DNA of 64,000 bases from Cladocopium goreaui (taxonomy: Eukaryota > Sar > Dinophyceae > Suessiales > Symbiodiniaceae): contig CAMXCT020004046.1 in assembly GCA_947184155.2 (NCBI GenBank), forward strand, positions 1 through 64,000, in the 5' to 3' direction. A model generated the notes under the pieces. That model worked only from the letters and a program-made list of their open reading frames with translations, had not been told where the DNA came from and made no database searches. Shown here one piece after another: positions 11,448 through 38,910 of this stretch; the first letter of the stretch is position 1; each line of letters begins with the position of its first letter. Made by a program: the position numbers and the translations under genes.

Positions 11448-11935
11448 GTGTTGAGAATCCTGACACGTCCTTGGTCAGAAGACTCAAGCACACCAAAAGG
11501 AAAAAACAACAGAAAAACCGACAGGGAGAAACAAAGAGAAAGACAAACAAAGCAGGCAACAGGAAGAAAGGGCCAACAGCACAACACACAACCAAACCAG
11601 ACAAACGAAACAGAAAAAAAGGGGGGGAGAGGGGGGGGCGAGTGTTGAAAAACCTGGCACGTCTTTGGCCAGGCAGTTCAAGCACCCAGAGCTAAAATTG
11701 AAAGATCAAATCAAATACCCAGGACACTAAGACTTAGGAGCAATGGCTAAACTACGCACACGTAGTGAGCGAAAGAGGTGAATGAGGGGGAGGAAGCAGG
11801 AAGAGGAAGCTGGAAGCCCTGACAGTCTTTAGTCAGAGAATCCAGGCACGAGAAAGAGACAAGAAAAGAAAGGGGGAGGAGGGAAAGGGAGGTGCTGGTA
11901 ACCCTGGCACGTCTTTGGCCAGAGAAACCAGGCGT
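11448..11935 (-). promoter_or_regulatory. four copies of the conserved leader hairpin
   Basis: Plus-strand inner hairpins lie at 11460-11478 (CTGAC, loop ACGTCCTTG, GTCAG), 11653-11673 (CCTGGC/GCCAGG), 11819-11836 (CTGAC, 8-base loop AGTCTTTA, GTCAG) and 11904-11922 (CTGGC/GCCAG). Each has a roughly 4x4 internal loop and then an outer stem: TTGAG/CTCAA, TTGAA/TTCAA, CTGGA/TCCAG and CTGGT/ACCAG. An unpaired G follows the outer stem on the 3' side, and further pairs (GTG/CAC) follow it in the first two. They lie in the 5' leader of the gene starting at 11384. The stretch 11385-12175 holds no convincing gene. Confidence 0.8.
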
Positions 11936-12175
11936 CAGATGGAAGGGAGGGAGAAGCAGGATGAAGTGAAATGAGCAATGATGGATGCTATCGTTAAATG
12001 TGGTCCCTATGCACGAAAGATCAATATGTACTTTGTTGAATGGAGAAAAAGCGGTAGCAATACCCTTCACCCAATATCCGGGAAGTTGGCTGTTTCAATC
12101 CCTTGATGTGGTTAGGAGGAGCTGTATGTCCCTTTCCTGGAACTGAGCTAAGGGCAAGACTGGCTACGACTGTCT

Positions 12176-12196
12176 CTTGAGCCGATGGGATCACAG
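12176..12196 (-). other. relict spliced-leader sequence
   Basis: Plus-strand CTTGAGCCGATGGGATCAC matches the complement of the dinoflagellate SL over the first eight bases and again at ATGG, with a two-base deletion. It lies about 800 bp upstream of the gene starting at 11384, beyond its four hairpins. Alone the match is weak; the repeated arrangement in this window supports it. Confidence 0.5.
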
Positions 12197-12377
12197 GGAG
12201 CAGTATCTCTTTGTGACAGAGCACACAGTACTGGTGCATTGCAAACATCATGGTTCAAATGAAACAAAAGTTCTTATGCGTACTTTCTTTCGTGTGTCTT
12301 AAGATAACAAGCAAGCCAGAGTTCCTTTTTGCTGATGCCCGCATCCTACTGGGAAAATGGTCATCTGGAGCACGCAA

Positions 12378-13496
12378 TTAGTCAACTTGGTGGAGGAATG
12401 TTTCTTCCTGGTTGTGCTCAGGGGGTATCTGCAGCTCAGGGCGTAGTTGTACTGGTAAAGACAGGCCATCGAGTATTCTGCGCCATCTAAATGTGGTGAA
12501 ATTAGTCTGTCGAGACTGTTTTTCGATTATGTGTTGATATTTCCACACTATTTGTTTGAGGATAGCGGTGGCCCTATCTGTCAGAGCAGTGAATTTGATT
12601 CGCACCTGAGAAAGTTGCTCACTTCTCACCACGTCGGAGGGGCTACTGGCACGCTGTAAAATGTCAATGACTGTGTCTTCAGTGTTCTGCAAAGCAGCAG
12701 CTTGTACAGCGTTGAAAACTTCTTTACGGGCAGGGTAACCATACCATTCCAGGGAGTGGCAAAGCACCGAGGCAATCGTAATCTCCTGCCACGGGTCCGC
12801 TTGTGCGTCTAGGAGCAGCTGGACATTAGTCCTGTGTCGATGGAGGACAGCAAGGAAAAGGGGTGGGAGCGCTCCTTTCACGGGTATCACCGAGGCACCA
12901 GCTTCAAGCAAAATTTGCACGTGCTGTGAGCTGCCCAACTCAACTGCTAACTCCAACATGGTGGTAGGTTTTGTTTTGGGCGGAATGATATTGGGGTCAG
13001 CATGGGCTTGTAGCAGTAGGTAAGTTAGTGTGGCTCCATGTCGAGGAAAACAGTGGCCAGCAGTAGGCTGGTAAGCGTATGGATCAGCAGAGTGGTCTCG
13101 AAGGATAGCAGAAGCTACTAATGTACTAATATGCCCTTCCTCCGTTGTCATGTCCATAAGGCCCACACCCTTACCAAGATGATAGCTTACATCAATCACA
13201 TCCTTGTGACAAATGGCAGTGAGAAGGTCTCGGTATTGCTGTGCTGACGGGACTTGTAACGACTGTACTATATAGCAGAACGTTGTCTCATTTGTATCTG
13301 TGTCGAACTGAACGGCCCTCAAAGGCAATTGGATTGCTGACGAGCTGGCTGCATACAGGACCACTTGGAAAGGTGAGTCTAACCTGAGCACCTTGGCCGT
13401 CTGTTTAATAATATCCCATCCGAGGGTTGTCCGTTCCACGACGTCCATCGTCAGGGTGGTTTCACCACGGATTCCATGGCAGACACGGAGTCGCAT
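12378..13496 (-). CDS. ankyrin-repeat protein
   Basis: This ORF of about 372 residues has a run of ankyrin repeats in its middle: TMLELAVELGSSQHVQILLE AGA-type repeats, then LFLAVLHRHRTNVQLLLD with AQADP, and VQAAALQNTEDTVIDIL. The first 60 residues (MRLRVCHGIRG...) are reminiscent of a ubiquitin-like beta-grasp start, which is tentative. Ankyrin repeats bind partner proteins, and the target cannot be told. The frame is open to an earlier ATG at 13586. I prefer the ATG at 13496 because it leaves the conserved hairpin (13531-13548) in the leader, as in the sibling genes. Two relict SL candidates lie upstream. Confidence 0.8.
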   Translation of the reverse strand: MRLRVCHGIRGETTLTMDVVERTTLGWDIIKQTAKVLRLDSPFQVVLYAASSSAIQLPLRAVQFDTDTNETTFCYIVQSLQVPSAQQYRDLLTAICHKDVIDVSYHLGKGVGLMDMTTEEGHISTLVASAILRDHSADPYAYQPTAGHCFPRHGATLTYLLLQAHADPNIIPPKTKPTTMLELAVELGSSQHVQILLEAGASVIPVKGALPPLFLAVLHRHRTNVQLLLDAQADPWQEITIASVLCHSLEWYGYPARKEVFNAVQAAALQNTEDTVIDILQRASSPSDVVRSEQLSQVRIKFTALTDRATAILKQIVWKYQHIIEKQSRQTNFTTFRWRRILDGLSLPVQLRPELQIPPEHNQEETFLHQVD

Positions 13497-13520
13497 ACTT
13501 ACCCCTGGAAATAAGTAATC

Positions 13521-13559
13521 AGAGGCAACCCTGACAGTCCTTAGCCAGAGGGGCCTCGC
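13521..13559 (-). promoter_or_regulatory. conserved leader hairpin
   Basis: The inner stem is CTGAC/GCCAG (13531-13548) with the 8-base loop AGTCCTTA. The outer stem is GAGGC/GCCTC across a 4x4 internal loop. One inner pair is A-C on the plus strand but G-U on the minus strand, which supports a minus-strand RNA. Confidence 0.75.
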
Positions 13560-13660
13560 ACTTATATTTGCAACCACGAAATTCATAGATGCCTAGGCAG
13601 GATACAGAGGGGTGTATAAGGAACTGTAAAAGGACTAGTAACAAATCAGACCATCTAAAT

Positions 13661-13679
13661 TTGAGCCGATATTGCTTAG
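13661..13679 (-). other. relict spliced-leader sequence
   Basis: Plus-strand TTGAGCCGATATTGCTTAG resembles the SL complement: TTGAGCC, AT and GCTTA align. It shares TTGAGCCGAT with the relicts at 12176 and 18804. It sits upstream of the ankyrin gene. Confidence 0.5.
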
Positions 13680-13821
13680 CAGATCACACGAGAAGAGTTC
13701 GCAAGGGCTTGCAAGCAAATACAACGAAAACATAGTAGCCAGTCAGAAGAAAACGGCATGTGCTGTATAGCATATCTAGGATCCCTTAGGTCTAAAGATC
13801 GATCTAGTTGGTATGCTTTTA

Positions 13822-13842
13822 TTTGAGCTGAAAATTCTGCGG
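13822..13842 (-). other. second relict spliced-leader candidate
   Basis: By position, 14 of 21 bases match the SL complement, including TTGAGC, AAA and the terminal CGG. It is a second, older-looking copy upstream of 13661-13679, as expected if an mRNA was retroposed and trans-spliced more than once. Confidence 0.45.
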
Positions 13843-14044
13843 GCCTTCTATCGAGCAGCGTGGCAAGGGGTCACATGCAAGAAACTCTTCTACTCGACTG
13901 CCAGAAATCTGGTAGCAGATATAGCAAGTATCGCACTTACCATCTTTTTCTGTCCTGCATCCTCAGCGTGAGGAAAGAGCCACAGTCTTCGCTGCAGTTC
14001 CTTCGGACTGTAGACAGCATGCAGATGTCAAAGGTCTATGTCAC

Positions 14045-15208
14045 TCAGGTTTGACTTCCCTCTGTAGCTGGATCTGTGCACGATTCTGTCGGAGCAGCGG
14101 AAACAGCTTGAACCAAATCTTCCTCTTTGGCCGTGGCTTGTTCATGCTCGATCTGCACCAAGTTGCCCACGACTTCTTCCATTTGGGTGGCTGCCTCCAT
14201 TACGAAGGTTAATAGAGTGCGTGCATACGCCAGCTGTTTAGCGGCCCGGGCCCGGCCCTCTGTTGCAGGTCCTAGCGGCGGTACCTCACCATGCCGCCAC
14301 ATTGTGACTTTGCTTGTTGTATGAGTTGGCATGGAGGGTGATTGCGGCTCCGATCGACCAGCAAAGGTCGCATTGAGTTTCTGCAAGTCGCGTTCACTGT
14401 AATTCCCAGTCGGGTCGAGCTGTTGGGTACTTGTCTGTCCCGTGGGGTCTGTATACTTCCTCTTGCCATGCAAGTTCTCCTCTCTTCGCGGCATAGACTT
14501 TATGGCACTTTTGTGTTCAAAGCCAGTCTTGAAAGTTTCGTGAGCTGCTGAACTACAGCGGGATTCTCTGTTCAGGGCAATAATTTTGTCCATCACCTTG
14601 CCTGAGCTATTGGTCATTTCTGTAAAGGGCCAGCAGGGCGTGCGATTCGCCAGGATATTGTGTTCATGCATCCGGTCAACATAGAAATGATTCAATTTCT
14701 CATTGTGTCGATGGTTCGTGATGACAGCAAATCTTCTGGGACTGACCCAAATCCATAAATCCTCCTGAAAGGACTCTGTGGCATAGAAGGGCCAGATCTG
14801 CCGGCCTCCCATTTCCACAAAACAAAAATTGGTGTAGACGTCATCACTGGCTTCGGTATCTATATGACAAAAGTCATGTGACAGCTTGGCGGAACTGGAC
14901 CCTGGATAGGCCCAGTCCACTGGGCTCTTCATGTCATCATTGAGAATAATGTCCCAACATTCGCCATTGATGTACATTCTATATTCATAGAAGGACCATG
15001 CATGGAGCTGCTTGGCGTGCTCATAGCAGCCTTGCTGCCGATAGACCTGGATGCCATCGTACTCCGCAAGGTAGGACTCTTTGTATTCAAGTCGCTGGTG
15101 TTCACTGTGAGCTTCAGTATCATTACTGCCACCAGCGGGGCCCGCTTGGTCAGGCCCAGTCAGTGGGCCTGCTTTTAGCGTGACCTTATCACCGATCCAC
15201 TGCGCCAT
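14045..15208 (-). CDS. unknown protein, paralogue of 17822-18631
   Basis: This is a protein of about 387 residues from the ATG at 15208 (MAQWIGDK). The frame extends further upstream only with non-ATG starts. It shares with the protein at 17822-18631 the order NGE-W-I, WPFYATE / FYPFAAE, W...SRRFA and MHEHNILANR / MHAYNILGNR, so the two are paralogues. I do not recognise the domain. After it comes a low-complexity part and a C-terminal stretch (about residues 315-370) with heptad-like spacing, possibly a coiled coil. A conserved hairpin (15432-15450) lies in the leader, and TTTGAGCCA at 15482-15490 may be the remnant of an SL. No membrane segment is evident in the chosen product. Confidence 0.7.
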   Translation of the reverse strand: MAQWIGDKVTLKAGPLTGPDQAGPAGGSNDTEAHSEHQRLEYKESYLAEYDGIQVYRQQGCYEHAKQLHAWSFYEYRMYINGECWDIILNDDMKSPVDWAYPGSSSAKLSHDFCHIDTEASDDVYTNFCFVEMGGRQIWPFYATESFQEDLWIWVSPRRFAVITNHRHNEKLNHFYVDRMHEHNILANRTPCWPFTEMTNSSGKVMDKIIALNRESRCSSAAHETFKTGFEHKSAIKSMPRREENLHGKRKYTDPTGQTSTQQLDPTGNYSERDLQKLNATFAGRSEPQSPSMPTHTTSKVTMWRHGEVPPLGPATEGRARAAKQLAYARTLLTFVMEAATQMEEVVGNLVQIEHEQATAKEEDLVQAVSAAPTESCTDPATEGSQT

Positions 15209-15426
15209 GACTGCCCACCAGGGTTTACAAGGGTATGGCAGAAGCAGGAACGACGTGCAGGAAAAGAGAGGAGAGGAAACAATCACAGACGAGTGAGAGG
15301 GACGGACCAGAAGGTAAAGACGAGGGGCCAAAAGTTACGGACAGCAGCAGAGGTAGCAATAGGGGGCAGCCAAAGAGAGGAGGAGACTACGGCAAAAGAG
15401 AGGGAAGGCAGGATAGAGAGAGGGTA

Positions 15427-15457
15427 CTCCCCTGACACGTCTTTGGTCAGAGGAGTG
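15427..15457 (-). promoter_or_regulatory. conserved leader hairpin
   Basis: The inner stem is CTGAC/GTCAG at 15432-15450 with loop ACGTCTTTG. It can extend across one mismatch into ACTCC/GGAGT. It lies upstream of the gene starting at 15208. Confidence 0.8.
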
Positions 15458-15693
15458 GGAGCCCTGTACATGGGGCGATGGTTTGAGCCACAGGTATGCA
15501 ATAGGGTATACTAAGAATGATGCCGTATCTCTCCCTGTCGACATGTACCAGATTCACGTGTACACATGAAGCATATGCTGAGCATGCACGCTGCCTTGGC
15601 GGAGACACGACTCTCTTTTTGCCAGAATTTTGAATTGGCAAGATCACACCTAAGGATGATAAGCATAGTCCTTGCTTCGCGTCACTTGATTCA

Positions 15694-16089
15694 TCAAAAA
15701 ACAGTTAAACAGTGAGTAAGTTCAGTGTAACTGTGTTGTACATAAGCTGTGGCGATGTACATTGTAGATGAATCCGTGAGGCCTATTCCTTCACGGAACA
15801 GCTGTTCAAGGAGCCCAGCATCAAGGCAATCTACCGTCTCTTCCTTGATCGAAAAAACGCAAGGGGTCCTATGCATGAGTCCATTGGATATGAGGAGATA
15901 GTCTTGAATTTGTTGCTCGTCGATTCGGATTACTGCGTGTGTAGCAGTGTGTGCAATCCAAGTCTCCGCATCAGGCATTCGTAGGTGCAAAATTAGCAGT
16001 TCGATGTTGTCTCCTATCACTGCAGACGGAGGTCTTGCTTCGAGCGAGGTTGCTCCGATAACTCCATCCACAACGTCTAAGTGCTTCAT
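15694..16089 (-). CDS. hypothetical protein
   Basis: This ORF codes for about 131 residues from the ATG at 16089 (MKHLDVVDGVIGATS). The same frame is open to 16161 with a GTG. No domain is recognised; it is acidic and without a clear membrane segment. The main support is position: a well-preserved relict SL lies at 16225-16244, and the gene fits between two other minus-strand genes. No conserved hairpin was found in its leader. It is small enough that chance cannot be excluded. Confidence 0.5.
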   Translation of the reverse strand: MKHLDVVDGVIGATSLEARPPSAVIGDNIELLILHLRMPDAETWIAHTATHAVIRIDEQQIQDYLLISNGLMHRTPCVFSIKEETVDCLDAGLLEQLFREGIGLTDSSTMYIATAYVQHSYTELTHCLTVF

Positions 16090-16224
16090 TTCGTCACCAT
16101 GGCAATACCGTATGCGCTGTCTGACTAGGTCTCCGTGTCTAGCGTAATTGCTTGGAAACACCTAGTGATCTCAACCAATAACTACAGAGTGGTATTGTTG
16201 GATGTGTGTTGTGACGTGTCAACT

Positions 16225-16244
16225 CTTGAGCAAACGATGGCACG
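16225..16244 (-). other. relict spliced-leader sequence
   Basis: Plus-strand CTTGAGCAAACGATGGCACG aligns with the SL complement at CTTGAGC, AAA, ATGGC and ACG, with small indels. It is one of the best relicts in the window and lies upstream of the ORF at 15694-16089. Confidence 0.65.
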
Positions 16245-16331
16245 CGTAGGTAATGAGTGGCACATAAACCATGTTGTTGCACCGATCTGTTATGCGGCAA
16301 TTCTAAAATCCACAGCAATTTCACTGTTTTG

Positions 16332-17078
16332 TTATAGGAGGACGACCTCCGGTGCACCCAACTCTCTGTCAGGACTTCGAGTGGCCGCAGTGGGCGGGTC
16401 CTGCACAAGAAGTCTAAATCTTATGTCGGGAGCCATCATTCTGGCTACTTCGACTAGGAGCGTGCTAGGTTGTAGTCTTTGCACAGTTGAATTTGTTCCA
16501 GCTGCTCTGTTGGTCCAGATGCGGAGGTTGGGTGGCAACCCTATCCGTAATAGGAGAAATGCCACTTCCACCACTGTATCAACCGTTTGCTGCATGGTCC
16601 TGCGGTCCAAGAAACCGCCCAAGGCCGCAGTGATGTGTATTGTCTGGATAATCAGCCGGAATGGTCGGGCATCGATTGGCACTGGTGCAAATCCCGCCTG
16701 ATCGGTCATGCCTCCATCAGCAGCTGGAATTAGGTATAGGTGATTGACCCACACACCTCGTGTAGACGGGCGACTAAAACCTGCCACTTGGACTATGTCC
16801 TCGTATGATGCTGCTAGTGCTGTCAAAAGATGCTGTGTGATGCTCTGTCCATCCAATTCAACTTGTTGGAGGTCAGCTTCCAATGTGTTATAGATCAATT
16901 GCAGCCCATGTGCTTCTTCTGGAAAGAAGGTGACACATCCACTCTGCACCAGCCGTACTGTGCGCCTGAGGTCTCGCACAGCCACCATGAGTTCCTGTGC
17001 TGCTTCCAAGCTATATAAGATCATCTTTACTGGCATAGAGAAACAGTGTTCTTCACCGCGGAGTCGTACAAAGTCCAT
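16332..17078 (-). CDS. hypothetical protein, 248 residues
   Basis: The ORF starts at the ATG at 17078 (MDFVRLRGEEHCFSMPVK). The N-terminal half is helical-looking (LEAAQELMVAVRDLRRTVRL). No catalytic motif or known family is recognised, and no signal peptide or membrane helix is evident. A conserved hairpin with one of the best extended stems (17180-17225) lies about 100 bp upstream. A poor SL-like sequence (TGTGAGCAGAAAT near 17606) is farther upstream. The reading frame and context suggest a real gene; its function is unknown. Confidence 0.65.
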   Translation of the reverse strand: MDFVRLRGEEHCFSMPVKMILYSLEAAQELMVAVRDLRRTVRLVQSGCVTFFPEEAHGLQLIYNTLEADLQQVELDGQSITQHLLTALAASYEDIVQVAGFSRPSTRGVWVNHLYLIPAADGGMTDQAGFAPVPIDARPFRLIIQTIHITAALGGFLDRRTMQQTVDTVVEVAFLLLRIGLPPNLRIWTNRAAGTNSTVQRLQPSTLLVEVARMMAPDIRFRLLVQDPPTAATRSPDRELGAPEVVLL

Positions 17079-17179: not shown

Positions 17180-17225
17180 GTCAGTTGCAATCCCGACACG
17201 TCTTTGGTCGGAAAGACAACGTGAC
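17180..17225 (-). promoter_or_regulatory. conserved leader hairpin (extended form)
   Basis: The inner stem is CCGAC/GTCGG (17193-17211) with loop ACGTCTTTG. The outer stem is GTTG/CAAC across a 5x5 internal loop. A single unpaired G on the 3' side follows, and then GTCA/TGAC pairs. Confidence 0.85.
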
Positions 17226-17821: not shown

Positions 17822-18631
17822 TCATAGGTCATTGAAGATGGTTGCATAAGCTTCACTGAGGGCATACCAATTTTGCTGTAGTCGGTAAAGTGCTCGGTTG
17901 GCTTCTTGTACGAGGTCATTATGTTGCCTTTGCAGCACGTGGATGCCTTCACTGAGTTGAAAGATTCGATCCGCTTCATCTTCATGATTAGGAAAATGGC
18001 CTGCTATTGCATTTTGGCACTCTTGCGAGAGCCGAAAATCAAAGCACGGTCGATCATCTTCATGGACAGCACTGTTGATACGTGATTGCTCACTCAGTGC
18101 GATTCCTTCGAGAGTTGGCTGCAGTGTTTCAATGCGATTGCCTAGTATATTGTAAGCATGCATAATTTCTGCAATAACAGCACATTGTTGAGCGTTTTTT
18201 GCAACAATTGCAAAACGTCTGGAGTTGGCCCAGCATGCATATCCATTGTGTCGCACCTCTGCTGCAAAGGGATAAAACCCTCCATAACCTGCAATATTCA
18301 ACCAAGCCTGTAGGTAAACCTCGTCACACTCTCGAGGAATGACCTTATGGAATCCATGGGGCAATGAAGCTCCCATCACTACTGTCGTCTCATCAGGAAG
18401 CCATGATTCATCTTCAGCCCAGAGGATGTTCCATTTTTCGCCATTGAGCCATGTGCATGCTTCCATCAAGTTAAATACCCTGCATTCTATATTAACATTG
18501 TGACATAGCCTATGGATAGGATACTTGCCGCGATGTAGATTCGTCAACATATTTGGAGTGCTCTGAATGGTTTCAACGTTATACCCTTTCCAGTGGTAGT
18601 TCCTCAGAAAGGTCATGAGCGCGGTCGACAT
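17822..18631 (-). CDS. unknown protein, paralogue of 14045-15208
   Basis: This is a 269-residue protein from the ATG at 18631 (MSTALMTFLRNYHWKG). It shares with 14045-15208 the blocks NGEKWNI, FYPFAAE, NSRRFAIVAK and MHAYNILGNR in the same order and spacing. The C terminus (about residues 205-265) is heptad-like. No catalytic signature is recognised. The leader is short: a conserved hairpin (18653-18698) begins about 20 bp before the ATG, and a relict SL lies at 18804-18822. This is the most compact example of the SL-hairpin-ORF unit. Confidence 0.72.
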   Translation of the reverse strand: MSTALMTFLRNYHWKGYNVETIQSTPNMLTNLHRGKYPIHRLCHNVNIECRVFNLMEACTWLNGEKWNILWAEDESWLPDETTVVMGASLPHGFHKVIPRECDEVYLQAWLNIAGYGGFYPFAAEVRHNGYACWANSRRFAIVAKNAQQCAVIAEIMHAYNILGNRIETLQPTLEGIALSEQSRINSAVHEDDRPCFDFRLSQECQNAIAGHFPNHEDEADRIFQLSEGIHVLQRQHNDLVQEANRALYRLQQNWYALSEAYATIFNDL

Positions 18632-18652: not shown

Positions 18653-18698
18653 GCCAGGTGCAGTCCCGACACGTCTTTGGTCGGAAAAGCACCGTGGC
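18653..18698 (-). promoter_or_regulatory. conserved leader hairpin (extended form)
   Basis: The inner stem is CCGAC/GTCGG with loop ACGTCTTTG (18666-18684). The outer stem is GGTGC/GCACC across a 4x4 loop, followed by one unpaired G and then GCCA/TGGC. It is the cleanest full structure in the set. Confidence 0.88.
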
Positions 18699-19098: not shown

Positions 19099-19482
19099 CT
19101 ATGGTGAGGGTGGGAAGCAGTTCTCTCTCACATCATGCAGTTCTTCGTCTACACTTGAACTGATCTCAATGCCATCGGGATACACCACTGGGACCAACAG
19201 CTCGGTCTGAGCATATTCCATTTCACGTATGATGCGAGCTTTGTAGTCAGCTATCATGTGAAGTAAAGTGACTTGCGCTTGAATGCTCTCATCAAGCGTT
19301 TCTGGCATTGGTATGTCGACCCAGAGTACTTCTCTGGCCTGTTGCTTCGCCTTGAGCAAATGGTAGTGGGCGGACTGCAAATTATCCAGTAAGGTACAGC
19401 AAGCCGTATACTTGTTGATGACTCGTTTGATGTGTAAAAGTCGCTCGTCGCAGCTTGATGCATCCGATGTTGCGCACGCCAT
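19099..19482 (-). CDS. hypothetical coiled-coil-like protein, 127 residues
   Basis: The ORF starts at the ATG at 19482 (MACATSDASSCDERLLHIKR). The frame is open to 19539 only through a GTG. The sequence is largely helical with leucine-rich heptad-like stretches (residues about 18-55 and 70-95). No domain is recognised. A conserved hairpin lies at 19618-19636. GAGCCAAAA at 19811-19819 may be part of an SL relict. Function is unknown. Confidence 0.6.
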   Translation of the reverse strand: MACATSDASSCDERLLHIKRVINKYTACCTLLDNLQSAHYHLLKAKQQAREVLWVDIPMPETLDESIQAQVTLLHMIADYKARIIREMEYAQTELLVPVVYPDGIEISSSVDEELHDVRENCFPPSP

Positions 19483-19607: not shown

Positions 19608-19646
19608 TGAGGGACCCCTGTCACGTCTTTGGACAGAAGTACCCTG
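19608..19646 (-). promoter_or_regulatory. conserved leader hairpin
   Basis: The inner stem is CTGTC/GACAG (19618-19636) with loop ACGTCTTTG. A shorter outer stem GGG/CCC follows an internal loop. It lies upstream of the ORF starting at 19482. Confidence 0.78.
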
Positions 19647-20131: not shown

Positions 20132-20512
20132 TCATTCATCCAACTTACGCTTCATAGAGCTTTGACTCTGTTGCCTACCGTGCTTCTCTTGCTGACGATT
20201 TGCCTCCCATCGTTGAAAGATTTTTGCTCGATCGATGGCAGTCAAGGATTTCCGGCCAATCTGTTCTTCACAAGCTGCTTGTTTTGGGACTGCGTGATTC
20301 CTTTCCTCGTTTGCCAGGAATAATATAGCTTCATCCAACGCTCCTAATGCCAATCTCAGTTGATTGACAGCTTTCTCCGTGTCCATGCCGGCTAGGCTTA
20401 CCTTGTCAGTTGCCTTAGCCAGGCAATTTCGCAGCTGAGTGACATGATGGGATAACGGGTTCACTGAGCATGGCAATGGTTTCTGTCTAGGTCTCTCGGT
20501 CTCCGTGCTCAT
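20132..20512 (-). CDS. hypothetical basic protein, 126 residues
   Basis: The ORF starts at the ATG at 20512 (MSTETERPRQKPLPC). It has a helical central part and a charged, Gln/Lys-rich C terminus ending KRKLDE. No family is recognised. A relict SL (20544-20563) lies only about 30 bp upstream, so the leader is very short, and no hairpin is present. It lies just downstream of the LINE end at 20852 in the same orientation. Confidence 0.55.
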   Translation of the reverse strand: MSTETERPRQKPLPCSVNPLSHHVTQLRNCLAKATDKVSLAGMDTEKAVNQLRLALGALDEAILFLANEERNHAVPKQAACEEQIGRKSLTAIDRAKIFQRWEANRQQEKHGRQQSQSSMKRKLDE

Positions 20513-20563: not shown

Positions 20564-20851
20564 CATAAGTTACAGCAATATGCCTTGCCTTATGGCTGTT
20601 AGGCAGAGAAGGGTACTCCAGGAAAGGTGAAGGTTCTACAGCACTTGTCAAGTTCATTGGAACGAAGGGCTCTATACATCTGAAAAAACAGAAACAAACA
20701 AGATAAATGAAGTAACGACAAACCGAGTGTGTGATCCATTTGACTAAAGTACACAGGACGGGTACTTAGGTCGCTCTACGTCGTTTGGCCATGCGTTCCG
20801 TGAAGATAGCGTAGCCCGATGTTGGTGCTTGTGTGTTCCATCGGATGGGTC

Positions 20852-30800: not shown

Positions 30801-33299
30801 CCTTTTTCGCTGAATGCCATAATAGGGACTCGTGTCCCAGACCCACCGGTTGGTTGGTTGCTTGGTAGGGAGTCCAAGGCAGTATAAAAACATTTGGAAA
30901 TGTTCAGACTGCTCAAGGCGCTGTATACCTTTAGGTTTGCGGTCAGTTTGTACGAGTTGCATGCTTCCAGCATTCTCTGTCAAGTATCGGATCGATTCAG
31001 TTCCAAAAAGCTTCTGAAGATGCAGAATAACAAGGTACACTATGAAGAAGAGCATACTTCGCTTACCTGTCAGTCCGAGCAATCCATTTAAGTACCCTGC
31101 ATAAGTAAGATCTTGACAGGGAGATCCTGCAACAACAATCCACTTGATCGTAGGGTACATTGCCTTGGCTTGACGAAGGATCAGCGAGTCACGGGCAACA
31201 AGATCCCATACATCTTTCACGTAGATGGTAGCAACCCCTTCAATCGTATAAGCCCACTGTTGGTCTTCACGTAGCCCTATTTCGGCAGCAACAAGCCGAC
31301 GTAATACAGGATCAATTTCTGCAGCGATGAAAATGGTAGGGGGTTTACCTAGTTTTTTCTTGATGATGTGATAGACAGATCCGACTCCATCAAACATCGA
31401 GATAACACCAATGCCAGCAAGCGTTCCGTGTGCGATAATCCTAGGTAATCCTTCAGGGTCAATCTCTTCAACCATATCCTCATTCTTACCATCTTTGGGG
31501 GGGCCATGTCTGGTTGCTTTCGCCTTCTTCTTGTTCGACTTGGTTTTAGCATTGTGCTTGCATGAAGGGTGAGAAAGCTGCGAGTTTCGTGTTCTTTTCT
31601 GCTTGCGAGGTGATTTGAGAAAGCCTTTGACAACCTTTAATTGTCTTCTGCGATATTGCGCAACTTCTCCACCTCCTGCTGCTTCAGAAAGTTGTTTTGT
31701 CATTAAAATTGCTTTGGGCGATTTGACTGGCAATATGACCAGCCCACTGATGAGGAGCTTCCCGCTGACGAGCTTGTAGTCCGCAACTCGTATGCCATTG
31801 TTGTGGTCGTAAATACTTATCATTCCAGGCTGGCTAGTATGCAGGACTATGAGCTGGCTGTCATGGTCAAGCCTAGTGGTGGCTATGAGACACTGGATTT
31901 CATACTCCCTTTCTTGGAACATAAATTTGTGCCCGAGTGGGAGTCGTTCTTCCTCAAGCTTCGGATAGGAGCATCCTGGAGGTACTTTGATTCGAACAAT
32001 GATCAAAGGGCCGAATTTACCGCACTTCCACTTGGCTTGGGCAGTGTCTAGACATGAACAAGCTTGACACTCTGTCAATTCGTCAGCATTCCAGATCGGA
32101 GCTAACAAGTCACAAAGTTCATCTATGCCTGTATTAGGCTTGATTGTCGCAGTGAAGGTGTCAATTGGTAGTGTGCTAGACCGTAAACACGCCTGACATT
32201 GCAGCACAAATCTTGAGAAGAGGAAGCTACGAGTACTCTGACTAAGGTTAGCGCATATAATTGAATATAGTTCATACACAGCGTCATTTTGGGTAGTGCC
32301 GTTGGGGGGAATGGTGCTAAGCGTTGCTAGGGAAAGGCAGGCGTCGAAACATGTAAAGGGAAAGACAGTGGGCACTTGATGAACCCAGCTCCACCCTACA
32401 CCTACTGCTGCAAGGGCTGCTTGTCGAACATGTATGCTGACATGTGTTGGGATCCAAGGCCCTCTTGAAAGGAGGTACAATGCAGTATTCATGCTAGAAA
32501 TGTGGCTACAGTGGATCGCAATGTCTTGGGCTTTGTGAGCTAAGGCAGCGATAACGGTGTCATCAAGGGTCGGGAACCATTTGCGGCTAGATTCAGCAAA
32601 GGGAGAGAGAGAGGCAAACCGACCTTGTTGGGACTGACTTTGGGTCTCACGTTCAAAGGATGGCTGGGTGAGGTCAATTTGCTGAGTATGGTCATCTTCC
32701 CCAGTGATATCAATGCACACACGCGTTTTGTCGTTAGCCGGGAGAACAGAGCTTCGTTGAAGGGCAGCCTGGATGAGGGGCACAACATCTCCTTGATGTG
32801 AGGAAGAAGCCTGGGACGGCTTGGTCTTTGTGGGGGTTGCAATGCCAGGGGGGTCTTTACCGACTTCTACGACAACATCGTCATCAGGCAACAATGACTG
32901 TTCTTCTGGTACAGTAACATTTCCTATAGGGGCCTCAGAGGCAGCATCTAGAGGCTGGGACTGACTTGGAAGTGTATGTACAATGGGGTCACTGCTCTCC
33001 TGTTTGGCATTGTCAGTTTGTGAGGGAGTGGAGACACCGGGTGGGGAGGAAGGAGTGATAACAGGGTCAGAGAGTTCATTAGACAGTCTGACTTTACTTG
33101 CAGTACCACCTTTCACCTCTCCACCAGTGGGTTTGATCTCTTGCAGGCTAGTTTTTCGACTGCTGAGAGCTTCTCTTTCACATGTAGGGGGTTTCTTGAG
33201 AGGGGTGGAGAGAAGTGCAGGTTGAGGAGGTAGCATCTCTTTATCTTCCTCCTCTACTTTGCGTACATCATTTCGGTGATGGTCTTGATCAACAACCAT
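27841..33299 (-). CDS. DNMT3-like cytosine-5 DNA methyltransferase with possible ubiquitin-protease-like region
   Basis: Exon 1 is 33299-30710 and exon 2 is 29660-27841; joined they give 1469 residues. The first 200 residues are Ser/Thr/Pro-rich. Residues about 210-540 resemble a C19 ubiquitin peptidase: CSHISSMNTALYLL, two CxxC pairs, and YEIQCLIATTRLDHDSQL before SIYDHNNG; this is tentative. A Lys-rich linker follows. The methyltransferase shows motif I FDGVGS (near 31390), AAEIDP, GSPCQDL with the catalytic Cys (31113-31121), ENAGSM and QRKRVFL. After the intron it continues with MRILTVQEVRKL and CGNSFHPSLI, the latter being motif X. The intron therefore lies inside the target-recognition part. 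About 430 residues follow motif X, unrecognised. The stop at 27841 is in frame with the next ORF. The start overlaps ORF1 by 46 bp. Confidence 0.85.
29661..30709 (-). mobile_element. introner R3 (1049 bp intron) inside the methyltransferase domain
   Basis: The donor is GAATG|GTGGGTAGG and the acceptor is GTACCAAG|CGGAAAAC. Excision joins AAT-G|CG in frame (phase 1) and reunites methyltransferase motifs I-VIII with motif X. It is nearly identical to R2. Both younger copies are preceded by CTTGAATG, which suggests that a few exonic bases came in with the element. Confidence 0.9.
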
Positions 33300-35284
33300 A
33301 TCAATAATTGGTTGCTCACTGGTGCCAGCTGGGTGACTAACAGGAAGGTTGGTCCATGGGATAGTTGGGCTGACAGTAGGGGGGTCAGTGTGTGCATTCC
33401 TTGCCCTTCTGGACCTTTACAAACACGCTGAGCACCTTTGGGTTCACCTTGACTGCTTGACCGCTCTGTATTTGGCTTCGCAGTGTCATGGACGCTTGCC
33501 CCAGCGACTGCATCAGCAAGGGGGGGACTGTTTTGATAAGGGTTGATCTGTTGGGAAGGCGGTGTTGGCGGGGGGGTGGTGCCTACCGCGGCGTAAGCCG
33601 GAAATTGATCTATTTCTTTCTTACTGCCGGGGGGGGTAGACGGGGTCCTAGGCAGTTTGGCACCATGGTCAGTAAGTTTGTCCTTCGTGACCGGCTGGTT
33701 TTGTGTGGAGTTTGGAGAAAGTACCGCAGTAGTTTTCCTATTGGTACCGCTGTTGTCGAAGGTATTAAATTTCCATGCAGCAATGGCTTCAACTTTAGTA
33801 TCAGCCGTGATCATGGCACTGAAGTCAAAGTAGGGAGGCACGAGCATGACTAGATAACAAGCTTTGAAGGGATAAATTTGTAGAGCGTCGACTTTGGTGA
33901 GGTATAATGAGCTTTCGAGGCCGTCAACTCGATTGATTTGACATTGCCTTCCTGTCGGTATTTCAAACATTATAATTCTGGTAAATTTGGAGACTTGCTC
34001 AAACCTAAGGACGTTTTGCTTGCAGAAATCTCCTTTCGCACTATTCACTGCTTCAAAATGACTGAAATGAGTCAAAAAGATATCTAGTGTGTCTTTTACA
34101 GGTATTGGTTCAAGGAAGAGTATCCATGGGTAGGTCTCTTCAGAATAAGTGTATGACACCTGTTGAGTCGGTAGGTCAACTGCTGAGTCCTTAAGGAGCC
34201 CAAACCGTCGCTTCTGTGAAGCATTCTGGGTGCTGACAGGGGCGATGACAGTGAGTCTGTTTTTGAAGCTTGGATTACACTTTTCACCGATTCTACGCCA
34301 ATGCTCTCCTTTGGTCTCGTGCCTGGGTGGTTCACCCGGTGCACCAGTTTGTGGCAGTATGTTTCCGCAATGTTCTATCGTGAGAACAATATTGTTTCCT
34401 CTTCTGTCCTTGACTGAGAAAGAACATGGGAAGTTCTGCTTAACTTCATGAGGGATCCAAAACGTGAGCATCGTGATATTGGCATTATCTTCATTAACGA
34501 TGGTTTGAAATTCAAATTTGGAGGCTGAAAAAGCGTTAATGAGTGCAAAGCCAAGATCTGAGTCAATGACTGCTACTTCATTTTCCAGGAGTGGGATGAT
34601 GCTACTTTTTGCAATTTGAAGTGGTATAAAGGGCATACTGCCTATTGGTGCATATCTTACTTCAATTCGGTACCAGTTGCTGCCAATGGCAGTCACTTGA
34701 CTAAGAACAAATTGTGTCGATTGCTGTCGTTGTCCAAAGGGCAAGTACGTTGTTGAACAATGCAATAAATTGCGGAGCACTTCGATTTCTATGCCTTCTA
34801 GTTTCAGCATTACTTGAGCTTTAGACAGGAAAAAGTACTTTATTCTAAAGGACATAAGCTCCAGCGCAAGAGCATTTCGTTCTTGATCACTTAAGTGCCG
34901 AGTGGAAATAACAGTGAAAGCAGCAGCCTCCCGCAGTTTATGTAAGCGAGTCCAGTCAATGCCTTCTTTGATTTGGAACTGGGTATCTTGTGCTGTGTTA
35001 ATTTCTTTCTGTAGTGATTCAATTGCTTCACGGATTTTGGTTCTTTGTAAGCATGAGTTCTTTTCATATTTAATAGTAAGCGGAACGCTTCCTTTTGACT
35101 TGTCAGAATTATAGCAGCCATTTGGTGATGTACTGGTCTCACTGATCCCTGGATATTGCCCTTGCCGTAGTTCTTTGCCAACAAAATTTTCAAAGGCAAT
35201 ACGAGCAGGCATTATCAGCTCATCAGTAATCGTGTCAGAGATTTGCCATTCGATTACCGACGGACTGCTTGACAGGCTATCCAT
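33254..35284 (-). CDS. LINE ORF1, unknown structural or RNA-binding protein
   Basis: The first ATG is at 35284 (MDSLSSSPSVIEWQ) and gives about 676 residues. The frame is also open upstream to 35437 through a GTG within the 285 bp repeat. The N-terminal third is helical; the middle is mixed alpha/beta (for example LTFWIPHEVKQNFPCSF). The C-terminal 180 residues are Pro/Ser/Thr-rich. There is no CCHC knuckle or RRM that I can recognise. By position it corresponds to the ORF1 nucleic-acid-binding protein of other LINEs, which is an inference. Its last 46 bases overlap the methyltransferase ORF in another frame, an arrangement that would allow reinitiation or frameshifting. Confidence 0.7.
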   Translation of the reverse strand: MDSLSSSPSVIEWQISDTITDELIMPARIAFENFVGKELRQGQYPGISETSTSPNGCYNSDKSKGSVPLTIKYEKNSCLQRTKIREAIESLQKEINTAQDTQFQIKEGIDWTRLHKLREAAAFTVISTRHLSDQERNALALELMSFRIKYFFLSKAQVMLKLEGIEIEVLRNLLHCSTTYLPFGQRQQSTQFVLSQVTAIGSNWYRIEVRYAPIGSMPFIPLQIAKSSIIPLLENEVAVIDSDLGFALINAFSASKFEFQTIVNEDNANITMLTFWIPHEVKQNFPCSFSVKDRRGNNIVLTIEHCGNILPQTGAPGEPPRHETKGEHWRRIGEKCNPSFKNRLTVIAPVSTQNASQKRRFGLLKDSAVDLPTQQVSYTYSEETYPWILFLEPIPVKDTLDIFLTHFSHFEAVNSAKGDFCKQNVLRFEQVSKFTRIIMFEIPTGRQCQINRVDGLESSLYLTKVDALQIYPFKACYLVMLVPPYFDFSAMITADTKVEAIAAWKFNTFDNSGTNRKTTAVLSPNSTQNQPVTKDKLTDHGAKLPRTPSTPPGSKKEIDQFPAYAAVGTTPPPTPPSQQINPYQNSPPLADAVAGASVHDTAKPNTERSSSQGEPKGAQRVCKGPEGQGMHTLTPLLSAQLSHGPTFLLVTQLAPVSNQLLIWLLIKTITEMMYAK

Positions 35285-35366
35285 TTTGACTAGATATAGT
35301 ACAGTAGGATATTTTTGATATCTGAGGGTTCCAGTGAGTTGCTTAATTTCTCGGATGGCTGCAATA

Positions 35367-35651
35367 CACTGGTAGGACAAAAGTTGCGCTTGTTGAGCTT
35401 CCCACAGTGAACATGGTTGGTTTCTTCTTCTGCACACCCTTTCCCCGGTAGAATCCTAGCATGGAGCTTTGCCGTACCCCGGTCGCATTTCCACCCTCCA
35501 AAAGCGTTAAAATCTTATATATTTAAAAGAGGGTGATAATTGACCGTCCCACACCTGCCACACAAAACGGACTTGAAAATGTGATCCGTGGTTGACCGAA
35601 ATGGGTGTTTTGTAAAGCTTTCAAGAAGCATAAACTTTGTTCCTCCTGAAG
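35367..35651. repeat. 285 bp direct repeat, copy A
   Basis: It begins CACTGGTAGG and ends TCCTCCTGAAG. Copy B at 37441-37725 has the same length and I see no difference. It includes the start region of ORF1 and an AT-rich block TATATATTTAAA. Confidence 0.95.
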
Positions 35652-37440
35652 GGTGCAAAAAGCTTATTTAGTGGGAATTGCCAAGTCATTTGCTGATTTT
35701 TGCACCTGCTTCAGCTTGGCCATTACTCCACATAGCATGTCTGTCTCCATCCTCTTTGTCTGCACTGCTACACATGTGCCGTGACGCAGGGTACAAAAAG
35801 CTTATTTAGTGGGAATTGCCAAGTTATTTGCTGATTTTTGCACCTGCTTCAGCTAGGTCATTACTCCACGTAACATGTCTGTCTCCATCTTCTTTGTCTG
35901 CACTGCTACACATGTGCCGTGACGCAGGGTACAAAAAGCTTATTTAGTGGGAATTGCCAAGTCATTTGCTGATTTTTGCACCTGCTTCAGCTTGGTCATT
36001 ACTCCACATAACATGTCTGTCTCCATCCTCTTTGTCTGCACTGCTACACATGTGCCGTGACGCAGGGTACAAAAAGCTTATTTAGTGGGAATTGCCAAGT
36101 CATTTGCTGATTTTTGCACCTGCTTCAGCTTGGCCATTACTCCACATAACATGTCTGTCTCCATCCTCTTTGTCTGCACTGCTACACATGTGCCGTGACG
36201 CAGGGTACAAAAAGCTTATTTAGTGGGAATTGCCAAGTCATTTGCTGATTTTTGCACCTGCTTCAGCTTGGCCATTACTCCACATAACATGTCTGTCTCC
36301 ATCCTCTTTGTCTGCACTGCTACACATGTGCCGTGACGCAGGGTACAAAAAGCTTATTTAGTGGGAATTGCCAAGTCATTTGCTGATTTTTGCACCTGCT
36401 TCAGCTTGGCCATTACTCCACATAACATGTCTGTCTCCATCCTCTTTGTCTGCACTGCTACACATGTGCCGTGACCAGGGTACAAAAAGCTTATTTAGTG
36501 GGAATTGCCAAGTCATTTGCTGATTTTTGCACCTGCTTCAGCTTGGTCATTACTCCACATAACATGTCTGTCTCCATCTCTTTGTCTGCACTGCTACACA
36601 TGTGCCGTGACGCAGGGTACAAAAAGCTTATTTAGTGGGAATTGCCAAGTCATTTGCTGATTTTTGCACCTGCTTCAGCTTGGCCATTACTCCACATAGC
36701 ATGTCTGTCTCCATCCTCTTTGTCTGCACTGCTACACATGTGCCGTGACGCAGGGTACAAAAAGCTTATTTAGTGGGAATTGCCAAGTCATTTGCTGATT
36801 TTTGCACCTGCTTCAGCTTGGCCATTACTCCACATAACATGTCTGTCTCCATCCTCTTTGTCTGCACTGCTACACATGTGCCGTGACGCAGGGTACAAAA
36901 AGCTTATTTAGTGGGAATTGCCAAGTCATTTGCTGATTTTTGCACCTGCTTCAGCTTGGTCATTACTCCACGTAACATGTCTGTCTCCATCTTCTTTGTC
37001 TGCACTGCTACACATGTGCCGTGACGCAGGGTACAAAAAGCTTATTTAGTGGGAATTGCCAAGTCATTTGCTGATTTTTGCACCTGCTTCAGCTTGGTCA
37101 TTACTCCACATAACATGTCTGTCTCCATCCTCTTTGTCTGCACTGCTACACATGTGCCGTGACGCAGGGTACAAAAAGCTTATTTAGTGGGAATTGCCAA
37201 GTCATTTGCTGATTTTTGCACCTGCTTCAGCTTGGCCATTACTCCACATAACATGTCTGTCTCCATCCTCTTTGTCTGCACTGCTACACATGTGCCGTGA
37301 CGCAGGGTACAAAAAGCTTATTTAGTGGGAATTGCCAAGTCATTTGCTGATTTTTGCACCTGCTTCAGCTTGGTCATTACTCCACATAACATGTCTGTCT
37401 CCATCCTCTTTGTCTGCACTGCTACACATGTGCCGTGACG
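35652..37440. repeat. tandem array, 13 units of about 138 bp
   Basis: Units begin at about 35651, 35789, 35927, 36065, 36203, 36341, 36478, 36615, 36753, 36891, 37029, 37167 and 37305. Two units have one-base deletions and the last is slightly short. Units differ by a few substitutions (for example CATAACATG versus CGTAACATG). The minus strand has an in-frame stop in every unit, so the array is not coding. It is bounded exactly by the two 285 bp repeats. Confidence 0.95.
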
Positions 37441-37725
37441 CACTGGTAGGACAAAAGTTGCGCTTGTTGAGCTTCCCACAGTGAACATGGTTGGTTTCTT
37501 CTTCTGCACACCCTTTCCCCGGTAGAATCCTAGCATGGAGCTTTGCCGTACCCCGGTCGCATTTCCACCCTCCAAAAGCGTTAAAATCTTATATATTTAA
37601 AAGAGGGTGATAATTGACCGTCCCACACCTGCCACACAAAACGGACTTGAAAATGTGATCCGTGGTTGACCGAAATGGGTGTTTTGTAAAGCTTTCAAGA
37701 AGCATAAACTTTGTTCCTCCTGAAG
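37441..37725. repeat. 285 bp direct repeat, copy B
   Basis: It is identical in length and, as far as I can see, in sequence to 35367-35651. It encodes the last 45 or so residues of ORF0 on the minus strand. Confidence 0.95.
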
Positions 37726-38044
37726 TATGCCTATGGCAAGTGTCGAAAACTTTAGCTGCTATTTCAACTGGGCCAGTGTTGGCATGACACTCATAGATAA
37801 AAATGACAGTCTGTTGCATCGTCGCCAGTGTTCTCATAGCACTTTGCGCAGCTCCAAAAGAGGGAAAAGCGTAAGCAGTCGTCTCCTGCTTCGCTGTCTG
37901 TGAATGCAGCTGATCATAAGTGGTCAAAAGTATGCCTTCAGGTGCTTTGATTTTGCTAGGAAAATGCACCATGAGAGTGGCATTCAATCCAAGTGCACCG
38001 AGACCTTCTGCAGCAGCCTGTTGAGCCTCGATGTGCTCCGACAT
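37589..38044 (-). CDS. LINE ORF0, hypothetical protein of 151 residues
   Basis: The ATG at 38044 (MSEHIEAQQAAAEGLG) begins a protein with an alpha/beta-like pattern (QTVIFIYECHANTGPVEIAAKVFDTC). Its last part, from SGGTKF on, is encoded in the 285 bp repeat and includes a CGRC pair. No family is recognised. The eight-hairpin leader ends about 90 bp upstream, which makes this the first ORF of the LINE transcript. It might be a short regulatory ORF or the N-terminal exon of a longer product. Confidence 0.6.
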   Translation of the reverse strand: MSEHIEAQQAAAEGLGALGLNATLMVHFPSKIKAPEGILLTTYDQLHSQTAKQETTAYAFPSFGAAQSAMRTLATMQQTVIFIYECHANTGPVEIAAKVFDTCHRHTSGGTKFMLLESFTKHPFRSTTDHIFKSVLCGRCGTVNYHPLLNI

Positions 38045-38119
38045 TCTGGCTTTGTCTTCTTACTAGGAAAAGGGGGTGTGTGTGAGAGGTATGACAAGTT
38101 ACTCGAGATAAGATTGGGG

Positions 38120-38910
38120 AGGGGGGGGAGTACCTGCCACGTCTTTGGACAGATAAACCCGTAGAGCAGGGAGAGAGAACTTAACAAAGGAAAGAGGGAG
38201 AAGAGGGGGTGGAGTAGGTAGCAGAGCACCTGTCACGTCTTTGGACAGATGCACTGTGTAACCAGAAAAGAGCAGTCTCTCCAATTGGTTCACGTAAGAC
38301 GTAACAAAGTAAATCGAGGCTCAGACAAACAAAACAAGGGGGGGGGAGGAAAAGGTGTCCTAAAAAAAGGGGGGGTAAGGTGGGGTAGGGGACAGAGACC
38401 TGTCACGTCTTTGGACAGATACACTGTGTAACCTGAAGGGAGATCCGGGGACACAAACAAAAAGGGGTCTTGAAAGGACCAATATAAGAAACAGAGCACC
38501 TGTCACGTCTTTGGACAGACACACTGTGCAAACAAAAGAAGGCAGCTGTTATCAGAGGGGTCGTGAGCGAAAAAGATGAAAAACAGAGTACCTGCCACGT
38601 CTTTGGACAGACACACTGTGAAAGGGTTATGTGGAGGTAATGAGAAGAAGTCCCGAAAGGTAAAAGGGAAAAGAAGAATCACTATAATAGAAGCAAAAAG
38701 AGGACCTTAGTAGAGCAATGCAGAAAGAAGAACAGTGACCTGTCACGTCTTTGGACAGACACACTGTGTGAGCGCAAAAATTCCTTAGTAAGTAAGAAGA
38801 AGTGAGCCTGTCACGTCTTAGGACAGACACCCTGTGTAGACACAAGCAACCGAAAAGGGGTGAACGAAGGTTGCGCGGGGTGCCTGTCACGTCTTTGGAC
38901 AGACACCCAG
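38120..38910 (-). promoter_or_regulatory. array of eight conserved leader hairpins
   Basis: Inner hairpins lie at 38134-38152, 38230-38248, 38400-38418, 38500-38518, 38592-38610, 38740-38758, 38818-38836 and 38884-38902. All have CTGTC or CTGCC, loop ACGTCTTTG (one ACGTCTTAG) and GACAG. The two CTGCC forms pair as U-G only on the minus strand. Outer stems differ: ACAGTG/CACTGT around 38740 and GGGTG/CACCC around 38884. Poly(G) and purine-rich tracts lie between several of them. Short frames in this stretch are not convincing genes. Confidence 0.85.

Follow-up and report, generated by a model that had tools for sequence, protein, structure and literature searches.

Repeated RNA hairpins in a spliced-leader-headed, multi-ORF retroelement of Cladocopium goreaui, with a tentative role in internal translation

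Positions 39251 to 6554, read on the minus strand, of the 64,000-nt stretch of Cladocopium goreaui DNA analysed here (the window; contig CAMXCT020004046.1) are one multi-ORF retroelement of the dinoflagellate nuclear genome, incomplete in the window. The hairpins that recur along it are almost certainly a functional RNA element of this one retroelement, and they look like a sense-strand RNA structure kept by selection. The copies of the element are colinear with one another, which, together with the spliced leader (SL) at 39251, points to one large element; the preliminary description, which assigned the hairpins to small genes of their own, to the gene at 11384 and to a LINE, is not supported. 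The element is about 32 kb or longer, a length pieced from overlapping copies, no single copy having been read end to end. Among the matches listed on 17 contigs, 12 of 20 SL/hairpin pairs have the hairpin 18-35 kb downstream on the same strand, nine of these at 18.3-25.3 kb (the distance expected from the window is 19.3 or 23.3 kb).

The relict SL that forms the 5' end of the element (39232..39251, minus strand) is recognized from its sequence and from the SL-headed copies. It stands at the 5' start in three of three copies found without using the SL (the window, L062 and L063), and the SL end joined to the leader start has at least 105 exact copies in the genome, against none for the reversed control. 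When 20 copies chosen by the SL end were read, 19 also carried the first half of the SL, and their flanks were unlike each other except in L063 and L077. These insertions thus have an SL relict at the 5' edge and unrelated flanks, as in an SL-tagged retroposed element. The template RNA starts with the host spliced leader and is then copied back into DNA.

All features of the element lie on the minus strand. A 5' leader of about 1.2 kb (38045..39231) is followed by the ORF1 region (33254..38044), which is split in the window by a 138-bp tandem array (35367-37725) absent from other copies; in L062 the frame from the ORF1 ATG is open across all 1,104 codons present at that locus, and ORF2 shares one open frame with ORF1. 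ORF2 (30702..33299) carries motifs that are presumably cytosine-methyltransferase-like, and searches by sequence or profile gave no Pfam or PDB match for a methyltransferase. The reverse-transcriptase (RT) ORF region (20766..27822) is broken in the window and open up to the locus end in L050. Of the arrangement of a DNMT upstream of an RT, the RT is seen as an RVT_1 match in the downstream ORF (E 8.6e-10) and the DNMT as putative motifs only. Neither ORF2 nor the RT ORF, nor a possible small ORF (20132..20512), nor the conserved ORF g6b (15694..16089, 131 aa) has a hairpin before it. Further ORFs are g4 (19099..19482, 127 aa), with third-position bias between copies, g5 (17822..18631, 269 aa), g6 (16332..17078, 248 aa), g7 (14045..15208, 387 aa), the ankyrin-like g8 (12378..13496; Ank_2 E 5.9e-06, narrowly short of the curated threshold) and the g9 region (6554..11384), split by an insert at 8868-9913. 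The g5 and g7 products are 26.6% identical over 173 residues; g7 has 70 homologues, with a start Met invariant in 19 aligned sequences, and no relative of its family was found among the viral or genome contigs searched. At 6554 the window copy ceases to match the others, which continue into a weakly helicase-like region. The 1.05-kb inserts were considered as introns and rejected, their ends being unlike simple GT-AG borders.

Written on the plus strand, the hairpin loop ACGTCTTTG occurs 13 times in the window, always on that strand, where 0.49 occurrences are expected and none of 100 shuffles reaches 13. With the loop variants of the preliminary description included, 24 loops are found on both strands, of which 17, all on the plus strand, bear a stem. 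A covariance model (R1), built from 75 hairpins that include some of the window's 17, matches the window at full length 17 times, each time on the minus strand and at 44.5-61.1 bits, with no further window match at E <= 1. The earlier count of at least 17 same-strand hairpins is thereby confirmed, all 17 being present. Eight lie in the leader, as they likewise do in L062 and L063, at 38875..38911, 38799..38835 (loop variant CUAAGACGU), 38731..38767, 38583..38619, 38491..38527, 38391..38427, 38221..38257 and 38125..38161, the last being closest to the ORF1 ATG at 38044; alignment and R1 identify each of these, and the first, third and seventh were also folded, the third giving the weakest fold. 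Single hairpins precede g4 (19609..19645), g5 (18657..18693), g6 (17184..17220), g7 (15423..15459) and g8 (13522..13557, with an 8-nt loop), all supported by copy alignment, conservation, folding and R1. The g8 hairpin, at 13536, precedes the ATG at 13496, with a 5-nt deletion between them in one copy. Four more precede g9, at 11895..11931, 11810..11845 (8-nt loop), 11645..11681 and 11451..11487; alignment, folding and R1 support all four, joined by conservation for the last two and by alignment among element copies for the fourth.

The 17 hairpins have a fold in common, in which a 7-bp stem, containing a U·G that hardly varies, is joined through a small internal loop to an outer stem. The 5-bp closing stem described previously is there as part of a longer inner stem, in which the sixth pair is U·G in 16 of 17 hairpins and C-G in one; at the seventh position all 17 have a standard pair, of six types. 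The internal loop, once given as about 4x4, is replaced by one of 2x2 to 3x3 in the 75-copy alignment and in folding. The supposedly invariant loop proves to be nearly constant: CAAAGACGU accounts for 67 of the 98 full-length R1 matches, UAAAGACU for 13, CAAAGACGC for five and others for 13. Thermodynamic folding of 12 of the 17 gives z scores of -2.3 to -5.9 in 11 and -0.9 in one, the third leader hairpin. For comparisons beyond the window, 15 of 124 exact-loop occurrences were dropped as lacking the stem, and five chance matches of another stem were removed from 121 pattern matches before reduction to distinct hairpins. The resulting 88 became 75 (set A1) once hairpins sharing a 20-nt context had been merged and those situated too close to the end of their locus omitted. 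One of the 15 dropped occurrences, C35:267919, does form a hairpin, its closing pair containing a U.

The stems covary, as had been proposed. In the 17 window hairpins, 89.5% of cells are paired against 69.9% in shuffled alignments, two-sided cells number 51 against 18.4, and the covariation score is 0.521 against 0.161, none of 500 shuffles being as high on any of the three; pairs with two-sided change (8 against 6.7) and further pair types (26 against 21.5) were reached by 59 and 21 of the 500 shuffles, respectively. Partners slid by 1-3 columns leave 33-47% of cells paired and three to five pairs with two-sided change. The 75 distinct hairpins behave similarly, with 90.7% of cells paired against 71.7%, 201 two-sided cells against 81 and a score of 0.502 against 0.166 (again 0/500), while slid versions have 32-47% of cells paired and 29-61 two-sided cells. 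The eight pairs with two-sided change in this set (against 3-6 in slid versions) and its pair types both exceed all slid versions and do not exceed shuffles, 136 and 439 of 500 being as high. Pairing and covariation beat both kinds of control; the two of five measures at shuffle level in the 75-copy set count against the overall explanation given below.

The strand of the RNA is indicated by the wobble pairs. They were counted in 68 distinct hairpins for which the invariant pairs were the sole criterion of acceptance. Stem position 2 has 54 Watson-Crick, 14 G·U and no A·C pairs, and stem position 7 has 39 Watson-Crick, 27 G·U, one A·C and one other. In the genome, the stem pattern CTGN...GNCAG has at least 2,395 copies and its reversed control none; the 100 matches listed, judged by eye, comprise 81 Watson-Crick, 19 minus-strand G·U and no plus-strand G·U pairs. 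Wobbles are thus G·U almost only when read from the minus strand, which identifies that strand as the RNA and upholds the asymmetry noted earlier from three copies. Hairpin identity between copies is 96.4-98.6%, against 61.7-92.1% (mostly 62-87%) in the flanks, in the seven of nine tested hairpins that had informative copies. That no described element is known to have such a structure agrees with the Rfam 15 covariance models, none of which matches the window at its gathering threshold, and with searches of two hairpin regions, which gave only matches far below the gathering score. A viral origin was considered and rejected: the pattern occurs once in each of 15 IMG/VR contigs, where R1 reaches at most 23.8 bits, with 15 of 16 matches covering only the core and the single full-length one scoring 11.7 bits. 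All 98 full-length genomic matches score 37.6 bits or more, and the IMG/VR matches are taken as chance.

Hairpin sites in the element comprise the eight in the 5' leader, those before six downstream ORFs and one or two after the last long ORF. The last kind is seen outside the window copy, at L053:2095-2151 and twice in L045, and no clear ORF follows in the stretch past these hairpins (ORF list, by eye). The earlier placement in leaders accordingly holds for most copies and is incomplete as a pure leader reading. Mapped against start codons, the nearest hairpin centre lies 43-233 nt from each of the six internal ATGs, a mean relative distance of 0.27 of the intergenic length (P = 0.007, for nine hairpins of one copy and with intergenic borders of the analyst's choice); all nearest copies fall within 250 nt of the ATG (P = 0.011, with the limit set after seeing the data).

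Leader copies retained in the SL-bearing template, together with a nearest copy 43-233 nt from six ATGs, make cap-independent translation of internal ORFs the likeliest job of the hairpins, a proposal held tentatively. Each hairpin would be a docking site, where a single protein, or else the ribosome, may recognize the conserved U·G together with the near-constant AAAGAC loop (its closing pair probably C-G, with one U bulged out), the variable stems merely holding the shape. Docking would drive internal or re-initiating translation of the ORFs in the long RNA. Taken as a whole, a selected, repeated hairpin that serves as a docking site for internal translation is the best explanation at hand, favoured with reserve. 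Exact, narrow searches found no genomic copy in which the SL is attached 0-30 nt upstream of the g5 start motif or 10-40 nt upstream of that of g9, motifs carried by 6/6 g5 and 9/9 distinct g9 aligned starts; this absence, against the at least 105 SL junctions at the element 5' end, is counted for translation. Hairpins beyond the last long ORF that precede no clear ORF, the bare starts of g6b and the RT ORF, and a fivefold range of hairpin-ATG distances count against it.

A possible, somewhat doubtful alternative is that a protein of the element or of the host recognizes the hairpins and exports, protects or packages the unspliced genomic RNA, like a constitutive transport element or packaging hairpin; many copies would then provide avidity, and any non-coding site would suffice. 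The spread of copies over the leader, the stretches that separate ORFs and the part past the last long ORF suits such a role, as do the clustering of eight in the leader and the location of all 17 window hairpins outside ORFs as counted from assigned ATGs, although a bias toward ATGs is unexpected under free placement. The AAGAC at the core of the loop is reminiscent of the AAGACA loop reported, in the text available, as bound by NXF1, but AAGACA is in the loop of none of the 98 R1 matches (seven have AAGGAC), a count taken from R1, the regular-expression searches being blind to AAGACA by design, and the fold is unlike that of the retroviral element with its twofold internal loops. It is unlikely that the hairpins instead flag or hide internal 3' splice sites, a control by which part of the RNA would become SL-capped subgenomic mRNA and the template stay whole. 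The host does have SL trans-splicing, the element 5' end is itself an SL junction, and pyrimidine tracts and AGs follow several hairpins; against this, the AG after the g8 tract reads CAG in two copies, the window and L049, and ACG in three others, the g9 tract end differs among copies while AGs nearer the ATG are shared, and the SL-joined g5 or g9 starts are missing in the searches above. Cleavage at the hairpins by a nuclease or by the RNA itself, separating units, is very improbable: hairpins do stand at most unit borders, but no Rfam ribozyme family matched and the templates of SL-headed copies were uncut in the leader. A DNA-level protein site, cruciform or by-product of repeat amplification, suggested by palindromy and high copy number, can be set aside given G·U tolerance in one strand sense only, two-sided stem changes and hairpin conservation far above the flanks.

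If the hairpin is an internal entry signal for translation, the element would rank with the longest retroelements of non-LTR type and the hairpin would be a compact, many-copy eukaryotic translation element, relevant to how a eukaryotic retroelement's single long RNA expresses many ORFs. A single SL-capped RNA, at least 30 kb long and with at least seven translation units, the hairpin of about 37 nt serving as entry signal in an RNA-virus-like gene plan, is conceivable, if rather speculative. With thousands of natural stem variants around a near-constant loop, the recognition rule should be directly readable.

Several described systems share parts of this design, as far as the available text of the reports goes. 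SymbioLINE-Dnmt (de Mendoza et al. 2018, PMC5890265) is a dinoflagellate LINE-type element in which an ORF with a DNMT precedes the RT ORF, an order resembling that of the putatively methyltransferase-like ORF and the RT ORF here; the present element differs in its further ORFs after the RT, its SL 5' end and its hairpins, and in the available text of that report neither "hairpin" nor "spliced leader" occurs (0 times each). In trypanosomatid L1Tc, Pr77/L1TcRz, the first 77 nt, combines a promoter with an HDV-like ribozyme, and Pr77-bearing transcripts are described as lacking an SL (PMC4748587). It too is a structured RNA at a non-LTR element 5' end, and its host too trans-splices an SL and transcribes its genes polycistronically, whereas the hairpins here are repeated, eight after the SL in the leader and others internal, with no ribozyme match. 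Terminons, giant multi-ORF retroelements of up to 40 kb with structured RNA motifs, are similar in scale and plan, and are described with a Penelope-like RT and hammerhead motifs (PMC6431247), unlike the RVT_1 match and the absence of a hammerhead match in the window. Constitutive transport elements are likewise retroelement stem-loops, with NXF1-bound AAGACA loops (PMC4330393, PMC4174252, PMC7551171), and in one of these reports the effect needed four or eight tandem copies; the AAGAC core is shared, but loop and fold here do not match.

SL-tagged dinoflagellate retrogenes, in the text available, carry DNA-encoded 5' SL remnants that mark retroposed trans-spliced RNA (PMC12014239, PMC11453091). 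The element has such a remnant at its 5' end, and differs from these host genes in that what follows the SL is tens of kilobases long and moves repeatedly. Recurrent use of the SL, if real, would matter for how dinoflagellate genomes grow and for where SL-tagged retrogenes come from. At some element copies several SL relicts stand in tandem, and SL-headed copies, some with such serial relicts, suggest that the 5' end is supplied by host trans-splicing in each generation.

The hairpin is a selected sense RNA structure, retained in a template RNA that bears the dinoflagellate spliced leader (SL). The 64-kb window contains its loop, ACGTCTTTG, 13 times (0.49 expected), on the plus strand only; inclusion of the variants in the preliminary description gives 24 loops, with a stem present at 17. 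A covariance model, R1, for which 75 distinct hairpins from the host genome served as the training set, also returns 17 full-length matches in the window (E <= 1), exclusively on the minus strand within 11441-38921, in agreement with the earlier count of at least 17 same-strand hairpins. Across the 1.17-Gb genome, one exact hairpin has at least 190 copies and the pattern CTGNCACGTCTTTGGNCAG at least 2,395, with none for the reversed pattern. The minus strand is the RNA sense, because a plus-strand RNA would show every G·U as A·C: inner-stem positions 2 and 7 hold 41 G·U versus 1 A·C in 68 distinct hairpins that carry one of four exact loops and were accepted by invariant pairs alone, the tested pairs themselves not serving as a filter. 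Position 6 of the same hairpins is U·G in 64, C-G in three, and U-C in one. The proposal that imperfect pairs are G-U solely on the minus strand is thus borne out, apart from the single A·C in these genome copies.

In minus-strand sense, the consensus loop is CAAAGACGU. It caps an inner stem of 7 bp (5' side N-U-C-Y-G-N-C, complementary side G-N-C-R-G-G-N), which a small internal loop separates from an outer stem that often has a bulged C. An 8-nt loop, UAAAGACU, has no G to serve as partner for the C that opens the 9-nt form. The first loop base is U in 12 of 12 such gapped rows of the R1 alignment, and two 9-nt rows have U and G at the loop ends. Because 8-nt loops without that G start with U, the alignment is compatible with, though no proof of, an AAAGAC hexaloop closed by a C-G pair, with the U bulged. 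The loop had been described as invariant, a term too strong for 98 full-length R1 matches with 67 CAAAGACGU, 13 UAAAGACU, 5 CAAAGACGC, 4 CAAGGACGU, 3 UAAGGACU, 2 each of CUAAGACGU and UAAAGACGU, and 1 each of UAAAAACU and CAUAGACGU. Covariation of the stems, claimed alongside, is borne out: in the 75 distinct copies, 90.7% of cells are paired versus 71.7% after shuffling, and 201 cells are two-sided versus 81, values reached in 0 of 500 shuffles. The numbers of pairs with two-sided change (136/500 shuffles as high) and of pair types (439/500) show no excess over shuffles. Sliding the partners, a control that preserves relatedness among copies, leaves 32–47% paired, with 3–6 two-sided pairs versus 8 real and 16–20 further pair types versus 32 real. 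The window's 17 copies alone are 89.5% paired versus 69.9% shuffled.

What had been taken for separate small genes, a gene at 11384, and a LINE is instead one element, with colinear copies and an SL at its 5' end. Other copies align with window positions 6554-39250 in one order. At 6554, all six copies read across it stop matching the window; beyond this point they match one another for up to ~5.4 kb, and the window copy is thus truncated there. Among the matches listed, 12 of 20 SL/hairpin pairs (17 contigs) place the hairpin 18–35 kb downstream on the same strand, and eight do not fit; nine of the 12 are spaced 18.3–25.3 kb apart, where the window without inserts predicts 19.3 or 23.3 kb. 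Summed over copies, none read end to end, the unit is about 32 kb or more. Members of a ~1.05-kb insertion family, two of them 99.6% identical, lie within its ORF regions (8868-9913, 21166-22215, and 29659-30717); the first two sites, those read across in other copies, are empty there. A 138-bp tandem array of ~13 copies (35367-37725) interrupts ORF1 and is missing from other copies.

The 5' end consists of a relict SL followed by a 1.2-kb leader. This SL start is shared by the window and two other loci, L062 and L063, all found by other means and differing in their flanks. Twenty more copies were chosen by a pattern including the SL end, so for these other features alone count. The first half of the SL (CCGTAR) is present in 22 of the 23 copies and missing in L073; six (L068, L073, L075, L079, L083, and L084) have the SL relict doubled or tripled in tandem, imperfectly in L084; and flanks differ among all but L063 and L077. 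At least 105 genome copies contain the exact SL end joined to the leader start. The SL halves, tandem relicts, and differing flanks are a probable sign of repeated trans-splicing and retroposition, and the SL itself marks the host, on sequence grounds, as a dinoflagellate.

The gene order is ORF1, ORF2, RT ORF, g4, g5, g6, g6b, g7, g8, g9. Copy L062 keeps the ORF1 frame open throughout the 1,104 codons available, which span ORF1 and ORF2; the same frame has a stop after 716 codons in L063 and after 73 in L064. ORF2 has what we take to be methyltransferase-like motifs, a likeness for which sequence and profile searches gave no support. RVT_1 is the sole Pfam domain of the RT ORF, which ends near 20766, as seen in L050; endonuclease- and RNase-H-like stretches were recognized by eye alone. 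Third-codon-position bias between copies is found in g4 to g8 and g6b, with g8, ankyrin-like, in its own frame. For the g7 protein there are 70 homologues, many of them full-length, with identity down to 44% and a start methionine invariant in 19 aligned sequences. Where g9 continues in L053, it has a weak likeness to helicases: AAA_19 (E 0.0013) and Viral_helicase1 (E 0.007) score below their curated cut-offs, and there is no PDB match. The element seems to carry an old internal gene duplication, since the g5 (17822-18631) and g7 (14045-15208) proteins are distantly related paralogues, with 26.6% identity across 173 residues.

The ORF1 leader contains eight hairpins in the window and likewise in L062 and L063. 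A single hairpin lies upstream of each of g4, g5, g6, g7, and g8, and four upstream of g9, with none upstream of ORF2, the RT ORF, or g6b. Their assignment to leaders holds at these positions and is incomplete as a whole, since other copies have one hairpin (L053) or two (L045) downstream of g9. In six intergenic stretches, with borders of our choosing, the nine hairpins of one copy are shifted to the side of the following ATG, at a mean relative distance of 0.27 (P = 0.007). The nine intergenic hairpins were also compared between copies; seven form conservation islands (96.4–98.6% identity, flanks 61.7–92.1%), and two had too few differing copies to judge.

The near-constant loop could be recognized by one partner. 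Among proposed roles, internal translation of the element's ORFs is tentatively ranked highest, on the strength of the ATG bias and of two narrow, exact genome searches that revealed no SL joined at an internal start (g5 or g9); SL-joined internal RNAs need not be retroposed. A role in RNA handling, to which the copies downstream of the last ORF point, is somewhat less likely. Control of splicing, with pyrimidine tracts and AG dinucleotides of several leaders in its favour, is less likely again.

Retroelements with cis-acting RNA hairpins are already known. This hairpin has no match in Rfam and was not found in the accessible literature on dinoflagellate or giant retrotransposons, spliced leaders, and polycistronic RNA, subscription papers and preprints excepted, which to that extent agrees with the preliminary description that no element with this structure had been described. 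What is new, within the scope of the searches, is the hairpin family, its recurrence along a multi-ORF RNA, and the giant element with an SL at its head.

Around the element, an exact SL end, TTTGGCTCAAG, lies on the minus strand at 6034-6044, ~0.5 kb past the break-off point. On the other side, a Copia-like RVT_2 element occupies 40045-50229 on the plus strand between direct repeats 98.6% identical, and at 52698-54446 a 741-bp segment is duplicated, 1,008 bp apart, with 99.3% identity.
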